A DNA stretch of 64,000 nt from Tardiphaga sp. P9-11 (GTDB lineage: Bacteria; Pseudomonadota; Alphaproteobacteria; Rhizobiales; Xanthobacteraceae): positions 62,001 to 126,000 of the forward strand of contig NZ_NPKQ01000009.1 in the NCBI RefSeq assembly GCF_008329525.1, written 5' to 3'. The notes under the pieces are model-generated. The model saw only the letters and a program-made list of their open reading frames with translations, was not told where the DNA came from and made no database searches. The position numbers and the translations under genes were made by a program. This document shows positions 13,474-19,780 of this stretch, one piece after another. Position 1 is the first letter of the stretch; every line of letters starts with the position of its first letter.

Positions 13474-14030
13474 GCGGCAAAATTCTCGTTCTCACTGCGC
13501 TTGAGAGCGAGCTGGACAAATCACGTGCCCCGTCAGAGATCGAGGTGATTTTCACGGGCGTCGGCAAGATCAACACGACGATCGCAACGCTTCAGGCGGT
13601 GCAGGCCATGCAGCCCAAGCTCGTCGTGAACTACGGCACCGCCGGCAAGCTGAACACCAGACTCAGCGGCCTCGTCGAGGTCAGCGACGTGATCCAGCGC
13701 GACATGAATGCCGAGCCGTTGGCGCCGCGCGGCCGCACACCTTTTGCGCCCGATCTCGACCGCCTGGTTTCGGGCCAATCAGGCGTGATCTGCGGCAGTG
13801 GTGACAGTTTCGTCACCTCCACCGATCCCTGGCTGGTGGCGAACAATGTCGACATCGTCGACATGGAACTGTTTGCCATCGCGCAGGTCTGCCTGCGCCA
13901 CGGCATCCGCTGGCGCGCCTTCAAGTTCATCACCGACGATGCCAACGATTTCGCGCACGAGCATTGGACGGCAAATGTCGCCAATGGACAGGATCTGTTC
14001 TGGGACGCGATAAAGGACGTGAAGGTCTAG
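13470..14030 (+). CDS. Nucleosidase / phosphorylase superfamily protein (MTA/SAH nucleosidase-like)
   Basis: A 186-residue PNP/UDP-type fold protein: N-terminal strand [12 protein letters not shown], then [10 protein letters not shown], the glycine strand VNYGTAGKL, and the substrate region [11 protein letters not shown] with a downstream Asp in FITDDAND. It resembles 5'-methylthioadenosine/S-adenosylhomocysteine nucleosidases but is shorter than the ~230-residue canonical enzyme, so the substrate is uncertain. It overlaps dapE by 4 bp (ATGA). Its stop codon overlaps that of the convergent truA gene. Confidence 0.78.
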
Positions 14031-14767
14031 TAGTCGACCTTTACCAGATACAGCCCATCCGGCGGCGCGACGATGCCGCAGGCGCTGCGGTCCTTCGCGG
14101 CCAGCGCCGCAGCCAGGTCGTCCGGCGTCCAACGTCCGTTGCCGACCCAGACCAGCGAGCCGACCATCGAGCGCACCTGACTGTGCAAGAAAGATCGCGC
14201 GGATGTCGTGATCGTGATCGCCTCACCATCCTGTTCCACGTCGAGCTGATCGAGCGTGCGGATCGGCGACTTGGCCTGGCATTCGGTGTCGCGGAAGGTC
14301 GTGAAGTCGTGTCGGCCGAGCAGGCGCTTCGCGCCCTCGTGCATCGCTGCGACATCGAGCGGACGCGGCACGCGCCAGACACGGCCGGCGTCTACCGCGA
14401 GGTTCGCGCGGCGATTGCTGATGCGATAGACGTAATGGCGTTTGACGGCCGAGAACCGCGCCTCGAAATCATCCGGCACGATATCAGCGGACAGCACGCC
14501 GACCGGGTGCGGCCGCAGATGCGCGTTCATGCCATCGCGAAAGCGACCGGGCACCAACGCTTTCGGCACATCACAATGCGCGACTTGACCGAGCGCATGG
14601 ACGCCCGCATCGGTGCGCCCGGCACCGTGAACGCGGATCGGCTCGCCGCAAATGGCCTCCGCGGCACGCTCCAGCGCGCCCTGCACGGTCAGCGTTGCGT
14701 TGGCTTGCACCTGCCATCCGGAAAATGGCGTGCCGTCATATTCGATGATCATCTTGTAGCGCGGCAT
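14027..14767 (-). CDS. truA: tRNA pseudouridine(38-40) synthase TruA
   Basis: A 246-residue pseudouridine synthase starting [19 protein letters not shown]. The catalytic aspartate is Asp53 in [14 protein letters not shown]. It modifies the anticodon stem-loop positions 38-40 of several tRNAs. The ATG at 14767 gives family length; an upstream ATG at 14794 would read through a repeat element. It is third in the def-fmt-truA string. Its stop overlaps the stop of the convergent nucleosidase gene by three bases. Confidence 0.95.
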
Positions 14768-14770
14768 CAG

Positions 14771-14817
14771 AGCATGATCCCGAAAAGTGGCCACCGGTTT
14801 TCGGACAAGATCATGCT
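14771..14817. repeat. 47-bp dispersed palindromic repeat, copy 2
   Basis: 45 of 47 bases match the copy at 1034-1080, with identical terminal inverted repeats AGCATGATC/GATCATGCT. It fills nearly the whole gap between fmt and truA: its end supplies the last base of the fmt TGA stop, and truA starts 3 bp beyond the other end. The truA ribosome-binding region therefore lies within the element. Confidence 0.85.
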
Positions 14818-15749
14818 CATGAAAGGCGCAGCGGTGGCTTCAGCGGCGTGCCACGCAGGAATTCAATGGCCTTCATCGGCTGCTTGCCAGCGCGCTGCAG
14901 GTCGATGATCCGGATCGCATCGTCGCCGCAGGCAATGGTGAGCTGGTCGTCGATCACATCGCCGGGCGCGCCCGATCCCTTCGCGAGTTCGCAACGCAGA
15001 ATCTTCACGCGCACCGCCTCGCCTTCGATCGGCATCTCGCACCACGCGCCGGGAAACGGCGACAGACCGTGGATATGTCGCAGCACGTTGCGCGCCGGCT
15101 TCGACCAGTCGATCTTGGCCTCGGCCTTGTCGATCTTGGCAGCGTAGGTCACGCCGACATCGCTTTGCGGCGTCAGGCTCAGCCGGCCCCTTTCCAGCGC
15201 GCCCATGGCACGCACCATCAGGTCGGCACCGAGCGGCGCCAGCGCGTCATGCAGGTCCAGCGCGGTCATCGCATCGGTGATGGGCAAGCGCTCGGCCATG
15301 GCGACATCGCCGGTGTCGAGGCCGACATCCATCTTCATCACCATGACACCGCTTTCGGCGTCGCCTTCCATGATCGCGCGATTGATCGGCGCGGCGCCGC
15401 GCCAGCGTGGCAACAACGAGCCGTGCAGGTTGAAGCAACCCAGGGGCGGCACATCGAGAATGTTCTGCGGCAGGATCATGCCATAGGCGACGACCACCGC
15501 CGCCTCGGCCTCATGCGACCGGAACTCGGCTTCAGCATCCGGCGTCCGCAATGTCTTCGGCGTGAACACGGGAATGCCGAGCCGTTCGGCTTCGCGCGCC
15601 ACCGGCGTTGGCTGCAGCTTCATGCCACGGCCGGCAGGCTTCGGCTCGCGGGTATAGACGGCCACGATCTCATGGCCATGAGCCACGAGTTCGAGCAGCG
15701 TCGGCACCGCGAAATCCGGCGTGCCCATGAAGATCAAACGAAGCGACAT
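14817..15749 (-). CDS. fmt: Methionyl-tRNA formyltransferase
   Basis: A 310-residue enzyme that formylates initiator Met-tRNA using 10-formyltetrahydrofolate. The N-terminal Rossmann domain has [10 protein letters not shown], and the catalytic residues Asn107 and His109 are in [16 protein letters not shown], with the catalytic aspartate (about residue 145) in GLDTGDVA. The C-terminal OB-fold tRNA-binding domain is present. It lies 39 bp downstream of def, which removes the formyl group later. Confidence 0.96.
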
Positions 15750-15788
15750 AGGTCGGAGCCGATCTGTTGCAGCGTGACGCGGAGAAAC

Positions 15789-16310
15789 CTACTCCGCGCG
15801 CTTGGCGAGCTTGGTGAACTTCTTCAGCACGCGGTCGCGCTTCAGCTTGGAGAGGTAATCGACAAACAGCACGCCATTGAGATGATCGATCTCATGCTGG
15901 ATGCAGGTCGCGAACAACCCGCTGGCCTCCTCCTCGACCGTCTTGCCGTCGAGATCGAGATAGCGGATGCGCACCGTCGCCGGGCGTTCCACTTCCTCGT
16001 AATATTCCGGAATCGACAGGCAGCCTTCCTCGTAGACCGAGAATTCTTCCGAAGCCGAGATGACCTCCGGATTGATGAAGACACGCGGCTTCTTGCCGTC
16101 CTCCTCATCGTCCTTCTTGGCGATGTCCATGGTGATCAGCCGCAGCGGGACCGCGATCTGGATCGCCGCCAGCCCGATCCCGGGTGCGTCATACATCGTC
16201 TCGAACATGTCGTCGGCGAGCTTGCGCACCTCCGACGTCACCTTCTCGACAGGTTTGGAGATCAGCCGCAACTGTTTGTCCGGCAGGATAATAATTTCAC
16301 GAATGGCCAT
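15789..16310 (-). CDS. def: Peptide deformylase
   Basis: A 173-residue metalloenzyme that removes the N-formyl group from nascent proteins. The three family motifs are clear: GIGLAAIQ (44-51), EGCLSIPE with metal ligand Cys97, and QHEIDHLNG with His139, Glu140 and His143. ATG at 16310 gives the start [11 protein letters not shown]; the frame is open upstream but not family-like. It is first in def-fmt-truA, and its promoter region is shared with rmuC and contains the CtrA-type box array. Confidence 0.96.
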
Positions 16311-16376
16311 GTCGGGCGATTTAATCTGCGCGCCTGCCTGGGTCAATGCGTTGGAAAAGCAGCGCTTCGAAGGGCG

Positions 16377-16496
16377 TTAACCCCTCGCTAACCATGACCA
16401 TTAAGGCAGGGTTAACCATGCCAGTTAAGGTCAGCTTAACCTCGTTTCTTAAGCTTGGGTTAACCACGAAAATTCACCTTGCATTAACCATAAATG
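16377..16496. promoter_or_regulatory. Five-unit, 24-bp-phased array of CtrA-type boxes
   Basis: Units start at 16377, 16401, 16425, 16449 and 16473, exactly 24 bp apart. Each is TTAA, seven bases, then TTAACC, then seven bases. Units 2, 3 and 4 match the known alphaproteobacterial CtrA consensus TTAA-N7-TTAAC exactly; unit 1 has CTAAC in the second half and unit 5 has TTCA in the first half. The array lies 67 bp upstream of the def ATG and 46 bp upstream of the rmuC ATG. A GANTC site (GAATC, 16523-16527), the CcrM methylation target, lies next to it. Boxes are seen; CtrA binding is inferred. Confidence 0.75.
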
Positions 16497-16542
16497 TTCC
16501 CTCTTCGTTCGCTTCACTGCCCGAATCGGCTAGAGTAACGGG

Positions 16543-17757
16543 ATGAACGAGATCCTTTTCTTGATCGGCGACATGCCGGTTACCGTGGGTGTGGCACTGA
16601 CCGGCTTCGGCGCGCTGGCGCTGACCTTGCTGCTGGTCATCGCCATTATCATCGCCCGCTCCGGCAACCATGGCGCGGCGATGGCCATGGCACAGGCGAT
16701 CCGCGCCGACGAACTCGAAGAACGCCTCAGCGAGGTGTTGAAGGCACAGAACGAGGCCACCGGCCGCGTCGATGCCATGGGTCAGGCCTTGGCAGGCCGT
16801 CAGGCCGACATGGCGCGTGCGGTATCCGAGCGGCTGGATTCGGTGACGCATCGCGTCGGCCAATCCATGGAACAGACCACGCGCAACACCATGGAAAGCC
16901 TGAGCGCACTGCATGAGCGCCTGGGCATCATCGACAACGCCCACAAGAACCTCACCGACCTGACCTCGCAGGTGACGACGCTGCGCGACGTGCTCGCCAA
17001 CAAGCAGTCGCGCGGCGCCTTCGGCCAGGCGCGGATGGAAAGCATCGTCATGGACGGCATGCCGAGCGGTGCCTATGCGTTCCAGCACACGCTGTCATCG
17101 GGCAAACGGCCGGATTGCGTGATCTTCCTGCCGGACCAGCGCCCGCTGTGCATCGACGCTAAGTTCCCGCTGGAAGCCGTCACCGCGCTGCATGATGCGC
17201 GCAGCGACGAGGAGAAGAAATACGCGGCGCAGCGCCTGCGCACCGACGTGATGAAGCATGTCACCGATATCGCCGAGAAGTATCTGGTGGCCGGCGAAAC
17301 GCAGGACACGGCATTGATGTTCGTGCCGTCGGAGTCGGTCTATGCCGAAATTCACGACGGTTTCGACGACATCATCCAGAAGGCCTATCGCGCCCGCGTG
17401 GTGCTGGTGTCGCCATCGCTGCTGATGCTGGCGATCCAGGTGATGCAGCAGATCCTGAAGGACGCGCGGATGCGCGACGCCGCCGACCAGATCCGCACCG
17501 AGGTACTGAATTTGGGCGACGACCTCACCCGTCTGCGCGATCGCGTGATGAAGCTTCAGACTCATTTCGGACAGGCCAATGAAGACGTTCGCCAGATCCT
17601 GATTTCCGCCGACAAGATCGAGAAGCGCGCCGGCCGCATCGAGGAACTGGACTTCAGCAAGAGTGAGCCCGCCACCGAGGTGGCGCCCGTCATTGCCAAG
17701 ACCGCCGCCCCCGACATGTTCGCGCCGCTGCCGCGCAAGCTGCAGGCTGGGGAGTAG
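16543..17757 (+). CDS. rmuC: DNA recombination protein RmuC
   Basis: A 404-residue protein with an N-terminal membrane segment (about 20-40), a long coiled-coil region (about 50-165), and the RmuC nuclease-like core with KRPDCVIFLPD, CIDAKFPLEA and FVPSESVYAEI, followed by VSPSLLMLAIQV. RmuC proteins limit recombination at inverted repeats; the core belongs to the PD-(D/E)XK fold and the Asp-Ala-Lys here fits that site. Its upstream region contains the CtrA-type array, suggesting cell-cycle control (inference). Confidence 0.93.
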   Translation: MNEILFLIGDMPVTVGVALTGFGALALTLLLVIAIIIARSGNHGAAMAMAQAIRADELEERLSEVLKAQNEATGRVDAMGQALAGRQADMARAVSERLDSVTHRVGQSMEQTTRNTMESLSALHERLGIIDNAHKNLTDLTSQVTTLRDVLANKQSRGAFGQARMESIVMDGMPSGAYAFQHTLSSGKRPDCVIFLPDQRPLCIDAKFPLEAVTALHDARSDEEKKYAAQRLRTDVMKHVTDIAEKYLVAGETQDTALMFVPSESVYAEIHDGFDDIIQKAYRARVVLVSPSLLMLAIQVMQQILKDARMRDAADQIRTEVLNLGDDLTRLRDRVMKLQTHFGQANEDVRQILISADKIEKRAGRIEELDFSKSEPATEVAPVIAKTAAPDMFAPLPRKLQAGE

Positions 17758-17770
17758 AGCTCAATTTGTT

Positions 17771-17882
17771 GTCACCCGGCTTGACCGGGTGACCCAGTAA
17801 ACGCCGTCGCCACATTTACTCGCCGCAGCAAAATACAAGCACTGCCGCATACTGGATCGCCCGGTCAAGCCGGGCGATGACA
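17771..17882. mobile_element. MITE-like element, left copy
   Basis: A 112-bp unit with a hairpin at each end: CACCCGG-CTTGA-CCGGGTG at the left and ATCGCCCGG-TCAAG-CCGGGCGAT at the right. The two end hairpins are inverted relative to each other, as in a miniature inverted-repeat element. About 55 bp of unique sequence separates them. A second direct copy, by eye about 80% identical, lies at 18239-18352. It begins 13 bp after rmuC. Confidence 0.65.
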
Positions 17883-17899
17883 GCCGAAAAGTCGTTCGC

Positions 17900-18196
17900 T
17901 CACCGGCAAATCAGCGGATAGAGATCATCCCAGTTGGGATTATCTTTCTCGATCAATACGACCTTCCATTCCCGCATCCACTTCTTGAGCCGCTTCTCGC
18001 GGTGCATGGCGTATTCGATATTGTCGAAGCGTTCGTAGTAGACGAGCCGGTCGATGCCATAGGCCTTCGTGAATCCCTCTGCGGCTTTCGTTTTGTGTTC
18101 GTATACGCGGCGAATGAGATCGTTCGTTACGCCGATATACAGCGTCCCGCCAATCCCGCTGGCGAGAATGTAGACGTAAAATGTGTACGTCCTCAT
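17900..18196 (-). CDS. GIY-YIG family nuclease (YhbQ-like)
   Basis: A 98-residue single-domain protein beginning MRTYTFYVYILAS. The GIY-YIG core is degenerate in typical form as YVYILAS...GTLYIGVTNDL, with the conserved Arg in LIRRVYEHK and a later Glu-containing helix RFDNIEYAMHREKRLKKW. Such YhbQ/UPF0213 proteins may act on DNA; their role is uncertain. The start at 18196 is preferred over one at 18301 because the longer frame runs into the flanking repeat. The gene sits between two direct copies of a MITE-like element. Confidence 0.87.
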   Translation of the reverse strand: MRTYTFYVYILASGIGGTLYIGVTNDLIRRVYEHKTKAAEGFTKAYGIDRLVYYERFDNIEYAMHREKRLKKWMREWKVVLIEKDNPNWDDLYPLICR

Positions 18197-18238
18197 CACG
18201 AAAACTCGCGACTGCAATTGTAGCCAACTCAGTCTGTC

Positions 18239-18352
18239 GTCACCCAGCTTGACCGGGTGAACCCAGTATACACCGTCCTCAAAATTTACACCCCACAGCA
18301 AAACACAAGCTCCGCCGGCTACTGGATCGCCCGGTCAAGCCGGGCGATGACA
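18239..18352. mobile_element. MITE-like element, right copy
   Basis: A 114-bp direct copy of the element at 17771-17882, with the same layout of end hairpins. The left hairpin is slightly decayed (CACCCAG-CTTGA-CCGGGTG); the right hairpin is perfect. It starts 43 bp upstream of the nuclease ATG and ends 60 bp before the AmpG-like gene. Confidence 0.65.
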
Positions 18353-18412
18353 ACCGAGAGGGGGGATACGAAGCCACGGGCCGCTTCCTCCCGAATCTGC
18401 TAACCCTTCCCC

Positions 18413-19780
18413 ATGACCAGCGCGCCTGACTCCTCCGAAGCCGCCCTCGCCCTGAAGCCTCGCGCGACCTGGCGCGAGAGCCTGGCGGTTTATCTGCAGC
18501 CGCGCGTGCTGATTGTGCTGCTGCTCGGCCTGTCATCGGGCCTGCCGCTGGCGCTGTCCGGCTCGACGCTGCTGGTGTGGATGCGCGAATCCGGCGTCGA
18601 TCTCGGCACCATCGGGCTGTTCGCACTGGTCGGCACGCCCTACACGCTAAAATTCCTCTGGGCGCCGCTGGTCGACGCGCTGCATGTGCCGTTCTTTACG
18701 CGTCAATTCGGACGCCGCCGTGGCTGGTTGGTGTTTTCACAACTGTTGCTGATTGGTGCGATCCTGCTGCTGGCGCTGACCGATCCCGCGCGCTCGCCGC
18801 TGTTCGTGGCCCTTGGCGCACTGCTGGTGGCGGCGATGTCATCGACACAGGATATCGTTGTCGATGCGTTTCGTGTCGAGAGCCTGCCGGAAAGCGAACA
18901 GGCCGCCGGCATGGCGTCCTATGTGGCGGCCTATCGCATCGGCATGCTGATCTCGACGGCTGGTGTGTTGTTTCTGGTCAGCGCCTTCGAGAGCATCGGC
19001 ATCGCGCGCTCCACCGCATGGATGTGGGGCTATGTGGCGATGGCTGCGATGGTGCTGGTCGGCACGGTCACGGCGCTCGCCGCCACCGAGCCCGAGCAAT
19101 CCGCGCAAGCGGAAGCGGCCACGCGCGGCGAGAGCGCCTTCAATCGTGTACTGCAGGCAGCGATCGGCGCATTCTCCGAGTTTCTCACCCGCAAGGATGC
19201 CTGGGCCGCGCTGGCGTTTGTGGTGCTGTTCAAGTTCACCGATGCATTTTCCGGCACCATGACGGCGCCGTTCGTGATCGACCTCGGCTTCACCCGGAAC
19301 GACTATGCCGCCATCGTCAAAGGCGTTGGCCTCGCCGCCACACTGATCGGCGGCTTTGCCGGCGGCTTCGTCGCGCGGCGCTATTCGCTGGCGGCGAGCC
19401 TGTGGATAGGCGCCGTGCTGCAGGCGGTGTCCAATCTGGCGTTCTCGTGGCTGGCCATTGTCGGCGTCAATCAATGGGCACTGGCGCTGGCGATCTCCGT
19501 GGAGAATTTCACCAGCGCCATCGGCACGGTGATCTTCGTCGCCTATCTGTCGGCGCTCTGCAAAAATCCACTGCATACCGCCACGCAATATGCGCTGCTC
19601 ACGGCGCTGGCCGCTGTCGGGCGAACCTATCTGTCGGCAGGCGCAGGCTACGTGGCACAGGCCACGGGATGGCCGATCTTCTTCGCGATCAGCGTCATCG
19701 TCGCGGTGCCGAGCCTGATCCTGCTGGTCTGGCTGCAGCGCCGCGAGCATTTCAAAATGCTGGGGCCGGTGCGGGTCTAG
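18413..19780 (+). CDS. ampG: AmpG-like muropeptide MFS transporter
   Basis: A 455-residue major facilitator with about 12-14 hydrophobic segments. The N-terminal helix GLSSGLPLALSGSTLLVWM and the loop SSTQDIVVDAFRVE are characteristic of AmpG permeases, which import anhydromuropeptides released during peptidoglycan turnover into the cytoplasm. No beta-lactamase or amidase gene is adjacent. A related sugar or siderophore MFS cannot be ruled out, but the QDIVVDAFR loop favours AmpG. Confidence 0.83.
   Translation: MTSAPDSSEAALALKPRATWRESLAVYLQPRVLIVLLLGLSSGLPLALSGSTLLVWMRESGVDLGTIGLFALVGTPYTLKFLWAPLVDALHVPFFTRQFGRRRGWLVFSQLLLIGAILLLALTDPARSPLFVALGALLVAAMSSTQDIVVDAFRVESLPESEQAAGMASYVAAYRIGMLISTAGVLFLVSAFESIGIARSTAWMWGYVAMAAMVLVGTVTALAATEPEQSAQAEAATRGESAFNRVLQAAIGAFSEFLTRKDAWAALAFVVLFKFTDAFSGTMTAPFVIDLGFTRNDYAAIVKGVGLAATLIGGFAGGFVARRYSLAASLWIGAVLQAVSNLAFSWLAIVGVNQWALALAISVENFTSAIGTVIFVAYLSALCKNPLHTATQYALLTALAAVGRTYLSAGAGYVAQATGWPIFFAISVIVAVPSLILLVWLQRREHFKMLGPVRV

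Follow-up and report, generated by a model that had tools for sequence, protein, structure and literature searches.

The gap between the divergently oriented genes def and rmuC is the site of a regular array of CtrA-type boxes in the 64,000-nucleotide stretch of Tardiphaga sp. P9-11 DNA that we analysed (the window; Table 1). To its left, def is the first gene of def-fmt-truA. To its right, rmuC encodes a member of a DNA recombination protein family and is followed in the window by a gene for an AmpG-family transporter. A 133-aa open frame between rmuC and the transporter gene looks by eye like a small GIY-YIG protein and has no NCBIfam match. The array consists of five TTAA-N7-YTAACC units in exact 24-bp phase, in which the half-site spacing alternates between 11 and 13 bp (24 = 11 + 13). 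Both the phase and the five unit starts reported in a first-pass annotation are confirmed from the sequence, as are the exact matches of the three middle units to TTAA-N7-TTAAC and the single-base deviations of the two outer ones.

Table 1. Coordinates of genes, CtrA-type boxes, and presumed promoter elements around the def-rmuC gap (window positions).
Feature	Position	Strand	Sequence	Remarks
truA	14027-14794			in def-fmt-truA, left of array
fmt	14817-15749			in def-fmt-truA, left of array
def, peptide deformylase	15789..16310	-		TIGR00079, over cut-off
Presumed def promoter	16319..16346	-	TTGACC, 16 bp, TTAAAT	TTGACC at 16346-16341, TTAAAT at 16324-16319; near-leaderless
Array of five units	16377-16496			starts at 16377, 16401, 16425, 16449, 16473
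CtrA-type box 1	16377..16392	+	TTAACCCCTCGCTAAC	one mismatch (CTAAC); grid position -107 from SOS box
CtrA-type box 2	16401..16416	+	TTAAGGCAGGGTTAAC	exact; followed by CAT
CtrA-type box 3	16425..16440	+	TTAAGGTCAGCTTAAC	exact, on both strands (1-base shift)
CtrA-type box 4	16449..16464	+	TTAAGCTTGGGTTAAC	exact
CtrA-type box 5	16473..16488	+	TTCACCTTGCATTAAC	one mismatch (left half TTCA); followed by CAT; grid position -11 from SOS box
LexA-type (SOS) box of rmuC	16496..16510	+	GTTCCCTCTTCGTTC	GTTC-N7-GTTC, 7 bp right of box 5
CcrM-type GANTC	16523..16527	.	GAATC	in presumed rmuC promoter
Presumed rmuC -10	16530..16535	+	CTAGAG	mostly CTACAA in other species; start codon 7 bp on
rmuC, DNA recombination protein family	16543..17757	+		PF02646, E 6.4e-61
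133-aa open frame	17900-18301	-		between rmuC and AmpG-type transporter gene

At up to one mismatch, TTAA-N7-TTAAC matches ten times in the 64-kb window, compared to 0.79 matches expected, and none of 100 shuffled sequences reaches ten; nine of the ten fall in the array, with both strands of the same sites counted. A tandem-repeat finder reports a period of 24 across positions 16389–16441 (2.2 copies, 83 per cent matches). Because units 1–3 are partly alike in this way, the array may have arisen by tandem duplication long ago. The first-pass annotation argued that the array is not a simple recent tandem copy, which holds, but relatives differ by exact 24-bp units, and these differences point to duplication or loss of units.

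The array is in register with a LexA-type box located in front of rmuC. The motif of this box, GTTC-N7-GTTC, is described as the LexA motif of Alphaproteobacteria in the available text of two sources (PMC8565304, PMC3323433) and occurs in 73 of 86 def-rmuC gaps, 25 of those 73 being outside the array-bearing set; several of the 13 gaps without it are shortened, since the rmuC alignment starts inside the protein. Of the 73 gaps with a box, 63 have a GANTC at +22 to +29 from the SOS box, and 44 have it at exactly +27. The CcrM-type site noted earlier next to the array is real (GAATC), and it and the LexA-type box are kept well beyond the array-bearing relatives. In Caulobacter, GcrA activates promoters that bear methylated GANTC (PMC7987155, from the portion available). 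The conserved LexA-type box and the GANTC after it make rmuC a probable SOS gene whose promoter carries a conserved GANTC. A further GTTC-N7-GTTC is found 148 bp upstream of the recA match (opposite strand), although the ctrA locus has one too. In the open-licence literature searched, we found no description of rmuC as a LexA-controlled SOS gene with a GANTC; a candidate paper for a printed link between LexA and rmuC concerned Escherichia coli, judging from its accessible part.

The presumed promoters were located by conservation. For the def promoter, GGTCAA is found in the first 130 bp of 80 of the 86 gaps and at position 32–34 in 66 of the 86, and the presumed rmuC -10 rests on conservation judged by eye. 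A consensus promoter scan reported neither promoter, and its sole other site is inside def.

To compare the array among relatives, we searched 61 genomes with RmuC. Matches were found in 54, eight of which had distant matches only (E of 1e-11 or weaker), and loci were taken from the best 30 of the 54 matching genomes. Additional loci came from 80 def loci in genome records and from eight genomes without a close rmuC; another genome (G015) yielded only a distant def paralogue. From these we selected by locus number, after inspection, a set of 52 def-upstream gaps of close relatives (L031–L047, L061–L091, and L172–L175). A set of 55 also includes L048 and L049, which are from the same family and have no on-grid core (L049 has one off-grid TTAACC), and L171, whose array is phased internally with the SOS box further away.

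By the first-pass annotation, absence of the array from close relatives would have refuted its reading. Instead, at least one on-grid box is present in 46 of the 52 gaps, and three to five boxes in 35, although the species are related and the set was chosen by hand, so that these counts are not independent. Specifically, with up to one core mismatch, the number of on-grid units per locus is zero in six, one in five, two in six, three in 24, four in six, and five in five of the 52 loci. The consensus of 130 distinct units (of 138) is TTAA-N7-TTAACCAT, with two information-rich halves and a nearly free N7. Across the 55 gaps, 114 of 149 exact TAACC occurrences fall at one phase modulo 24 from the SOS box and another 20 at the phase of the left half-site; the pairwise distances between TAACC occurrences peak at 24 (73 pairs), 48 (33), and 72 (11). 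The mean identity of spacers between loci is 0.53 (1881 unit pairs), which indicates that the cores are kept while the spacers drift. Alignment gaps in 61 of 190 pairs of the three-unit group are partly length-neutral pairs and are not evidence of indels either way. Its retention in many relatives, with changing letters between the sites, makes it very probable that the array is functional.

Neither def nor rmuC needs the array, since six of the 52 gaps have no on-grid core, five have only one, and none was seen in the 25 gaps that carry an SOS box but lie outside the chosen set. Those 25 gaps include Microvirga, Bosea, Xanthobacter, Ancylobacter, and some genomes of the same family.

The array also stands out within the genome. 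In the 6.16-Mb genome, TTAA-N7-TTAAC has 38 exact strand matches, four of which are in the array. Three exact TTAAC separated by gaps of 0–30 bases occur at two other places; neither is a 24-bp-phased triplet, each has one pair 24 bp apart, and one sits within long open frames. Many equally dense arrays at other loci would have told against the reading of the first-pass annotation, but no other 24-bp-phased triplet was seen in this genome by pattern search. TAACC triplets with 24/24 spacing and up to one mismatch are present in 24 of the 61 genomes, in 14 of them at def, and these 14 all belong to the genus of the analysed genome. Among 18 genomes of the genus, a search for exact TAACC triplets at spacings of 18–30 gave 24 rows in 12 genomes: 18 rows (10 genomes) are at def, all spaced 24/24, and six are elsewhere, of which one is 24/24 and most resemble coding repeats by eye. 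The reversed pattern, as a control in the same 18 genomes, gave 31 matches versus 24. Therefore, triplets are not in excess by number, and it is their locus and spacing that stand out. As far as searched, the array is special to the def locus.

The second of the two other places with three exact TTAAC in the Tardiphaga genome (L193:1501-1532, corresponding to G000:C25:54777-54805 plus 3 bases) has two copies of TTAACCAT exactly 24 bp apart with a TTAAC between them. It adjoins a gene for a SIS/CBS-domain protein and is possibly a second, shorter phased site.

CtrA is likely the protein that binds the array, because the unit footprint shared across species equals the published CtrA consensus and the genome encodes CtrA. 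That consensus is TTAA-N7-TTAAC in ChIP-seq data from Hyphomonas (PMC7200025), with a variant TTAACCAT (PMC6180460), according to the available text of both sources. There are 56 matches to the CtrA model in the genome, of which only one is over the family cut-off (NF045991; 422 bits versus 350), and its nearest solved chain, 4qpj_C, is CtrA. Upstream of ctrA are TTAACCAT, 107 bp before the start, and a box with one mismatch, 333 bp before it. The other exact boxes are near genes for MCP, flagellin, Hpt, Amidase_3, GGDEF, DUF2336, and sigma factor proteins, as well as near less typical neighbours (aminotransferase, acetyltransferase, enoyl-CoA hydratase, and hydrolase genes) and some genes without a family match. 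This survey is not a regulon test: loci were obtained for 30 of the 38 strand matches, 23 were examined, and the 28 open reading frames scanned from 21 of them were picked by hand from position and codon-position GC, with no background set. CtrA was already the binder proposed in the first-pass annotation, and the footprint, the CtrA gene, and the neighbouring chemotaxis, flagellin, amidase, and diguanylate-cyclase genes lend that proposal support at the level of sequence.

Taking as observed the array, its fixed phase and conservation, the consensus match, the CtrA gene, the SOS-type box, and the GANTC, we consider it moderately likely that the array is a cooperative platform for phosphorylated CtrA between two divergent, near-leaderless promoters, which would bring cell-cycle input to def-fmt-truA and/or rmuC. 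One CtrA dimer would occupy each 24-bp unit, contacting two TTAA half-sites spaced 11 bp apart, and, with all five units oriented toward rmuC, neighbouring dimers would load side by side. As a 24-bp repeat corresponds to approximately 2.3 helical turns, the dimers would wind round the DNA, and side contact between them would fit better than looping. From just upstream, phosphorylated CtrA would act on one or both of the presumed promoters, so that def-fmt-truA (left), the rmuC promoter with its LexA-type box and GANTC (right), or both would come under additional cell-cycle control. At the rmuC promoter, LexA would repress rmuC until DNA damage, with CtrA and GANTC methylation adding cell-cycle timing.

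As to the sign of regulation, activation is favoured over repression, because the boxes closest to the genes sit upstream of the two presumed -35 elements and not over the -10 elements (these elements being presumed from conservation). Measured from the box centre to the start codon, the nearest box is approximately 62 bp away on the rmuC side and approximately 74 bp away on the def side. Activating CtrA sites are described near the -35 in the available text of PMC6180460, and it counts against the platform reading that the nearest box is upstream of rmuC by the distance just given and not near the -35.

The main alternative, which we regard as unlikely, is that CtrA binds but the array serves one side: either the SOS-regulated rmuC promoter or def. 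The orientation of the units would suit service to rmuC, as would the last core, fixed at -11 from the SOS box in most species, and the more variable distance on the def side (66–120); yet that distance is often constant too (66–68 in 20 of 46 loci). Service to def is favoured by five genomes (G006, G008, G010, G012, and G013) that have no rmuC beside def and have nevertheless kept the phased array, which argues that the array does not serve rmuC alone. The evidence for each side counts against the other.

In these five genomes, the only RmuC match genome-wide is distant (25–28 per cent identity), and in four of the five loci the gene that comes next is, by eye, the AmpG-family transporter gene. 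The TAACC 24/24 pattern matches exactly in four of the genomes and with one mismatch in G010, and the outermost on-grid core is at 66 on the def side in the four rmuC-less loci of the 52-gap set (L172–L175). These four loci carry 14 on-grid units with 49 per cent identical spacers and no broken unit inside the arrays; their 100 per cent core identity follows from selection, as units were taken where TAACC is exact. The arrays of two of the four species are longer than those of the others by exactly one unit. L172–L175 also share, upstream of the transporter gene, an invariant block by the array that is left after rmuC loss, GTTTACTTTTTGTTCACGATC, which is a near-match to the SOS box. The retention of the array without rmuC and the LexA-type box are two points absent from the first-pass annotation. 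That annotation had the array jointly controlling def-fmt-truA and rmuC, a claim weakened by the five genomes without an adjacent rmuC and by three loci (L042, L044, and L089) in which def, rmuC, and the SOS box are present and on-grid TAACC is not.

A bolder version of the platform reading, which we hold to be doubtful, has CtrA forming a regular side-by-side filament with 24 bp per dimer at one site per chromosome, at def. Such a filament might act as a graded switch or CtrA reservoir that couples both the formylation cycle of translation (def-fmt-truA) and an SOS repair gene to the state of the cell cycle.

It is very unlikely that another protein occupies the array, such as the OmpR-family regulator CenR or the H-NS-like MucR. 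Both exist in Alphaproteobacteria, the genome has many other response regulators (among the 56 matches to the CtrA model), and MucR, according to the accessible part of PMC10572780, oligomerizes and prefers AT-rich DNA with T-A steps. The CenR motif is, however, TGA-N8-TGA (PMC9275681), which differs from the array units, and CenR was rejected on this ground. MucR needs no consensus in the same portion of PMC10572780, which would leave unexplained why the cores are conserved to the base in a fixed phase. Literature matches to 'rmuC' that seemed to connect MucR with this gene were, in the text available, to 'rMucR' (recombinant MucR) and not to the gene.

We regard as highly improbable that the array is a chromosome replication site or a CtrA store, with the cluster forming part of an origin or acting as a sink. 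Such a role would agree with the presence, as far as searched, of a single dense phased array per genome in the genus, and with the CtrA clusters at the Caulobacter origin; the array is, however, tied to one promoter region. The gene hemE is an origin marker in Alphaproteobacteria, and in six genomes it is approximately 0.35 to 2.4 Mb away, at varying distance, and in the Tardiphaga genome it is on another contig. With hemE unlinked to the array, a replication origin was rejected. In one genome (G016:C1:2620696-2621699), hemE lies in two frames, perhaps due to a sequencing error or a broken gene.

A neutral tandem repeat, despite the partial likeness of units 1–3, is scarcely credible given conserved cores and diverging spacers, and the same holds for a structured RNA or terminator, which was rejected for want of support from the fold (z = -1.29; 24 of 200 shuffles fold as well), from Rfam (no match in 14000–19000), or from a terminator scan (no terminator-like site in 16250–16650).

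We also looked for 24-bp-phased pairs in viral contigs. Pairs of TTAA-N7-TTAAC were found in 67 stretches at 24 bp, versus 18 at 23 bp and 15 at 25 bp, and in 106 stretches at 21 bp and 50 at 27 bp. Since multiples of three are favoured, as for coding repeats, and one viral sequence family accounts for 22 of the 67 stretches, these numbers are not evidence of enrichment at 24 bp. Similarly, pairs of TTAACCAT occur in at least 120 stretches at 24 bp versus 109 at 21 bp, and among the pairs listed, at least one left half-site is present in 16 of 125 versus 15 of 116, which is no difference. We thus found no enrichment at 24 bp in viral contigs. One IMG/VR phage contig, with terminase and HNH matches, carries four 24-bp-phased TTAA-N7-TTAAC units outside of long open frames (L362:2835-2922); on the minus strand, its unit nearly matches the bacterial unit consensus.

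A 24-bp-phased or tandem CtrA array was not found in the open-licence literature, an absence that carries little weight, and titles on CtrA in Bradyrhizobium within that literature name no such array. Clusters of CtrA sites are themselves known; what the sequence adds is a phased CtrA-type array at an unexpected place, beside an SOS box. Should CtrA bind here, its targets in a group of soil bacteria, Bradyrhizobium and Afipia among them, may extend to a core translation operon and an SOS gene, and CtrA, LexA, and CcrM sites would share one intergenic region. With its repeat fixed at 24 bp and its unit number varying in nature from zero to five, the array offers a ready series for studying the cooperativity of CtrA dimers.

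Among known systems, the Caulobacter origin holds five CtrA sites, and PhoB-type tandem boxes seat dimers of OmpR-family regulators in a row. Both resemble the array in that a single stretch of DNA seats several dimers of CtrA or of an OmpR-family regulator, but the array has no link to an origin marker and has a period of 24 bp (11 + 13) instead of 22 bp (11 + 11). The other systems are compared from the available text of their sources. Single and paired CtrA boxes (PMC7200025, PMC6180460) share with the array the motif, an intergenic location, and a CtrA in the genome; they serve flagellar and cell-cycle genes from near the -35, whereas here five boxes at 24 bp lie between def and rmuC, upstream of the presumed -35 elements. 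The divergent flagellar promoters of Rhodobacter sphaeroides (PMC6180460) likewise have one CtrA region between two promoters, but with one or two sites, compared to up to five here between housekeeping and SOS genes. In the CtrA clusters of phages that infect Alphaproteobacteria (PMC9437464), several sites or half-sites share one intergenic stretch, as in the array, and for phage vB_BsubS-Delta a CtrA gel shift was obtained on an 81-bp probe with three sites. The phage clusters are situated in gap or terminal-repeat regions and have a high turnover, whereas the bacterial array has kept its phase.
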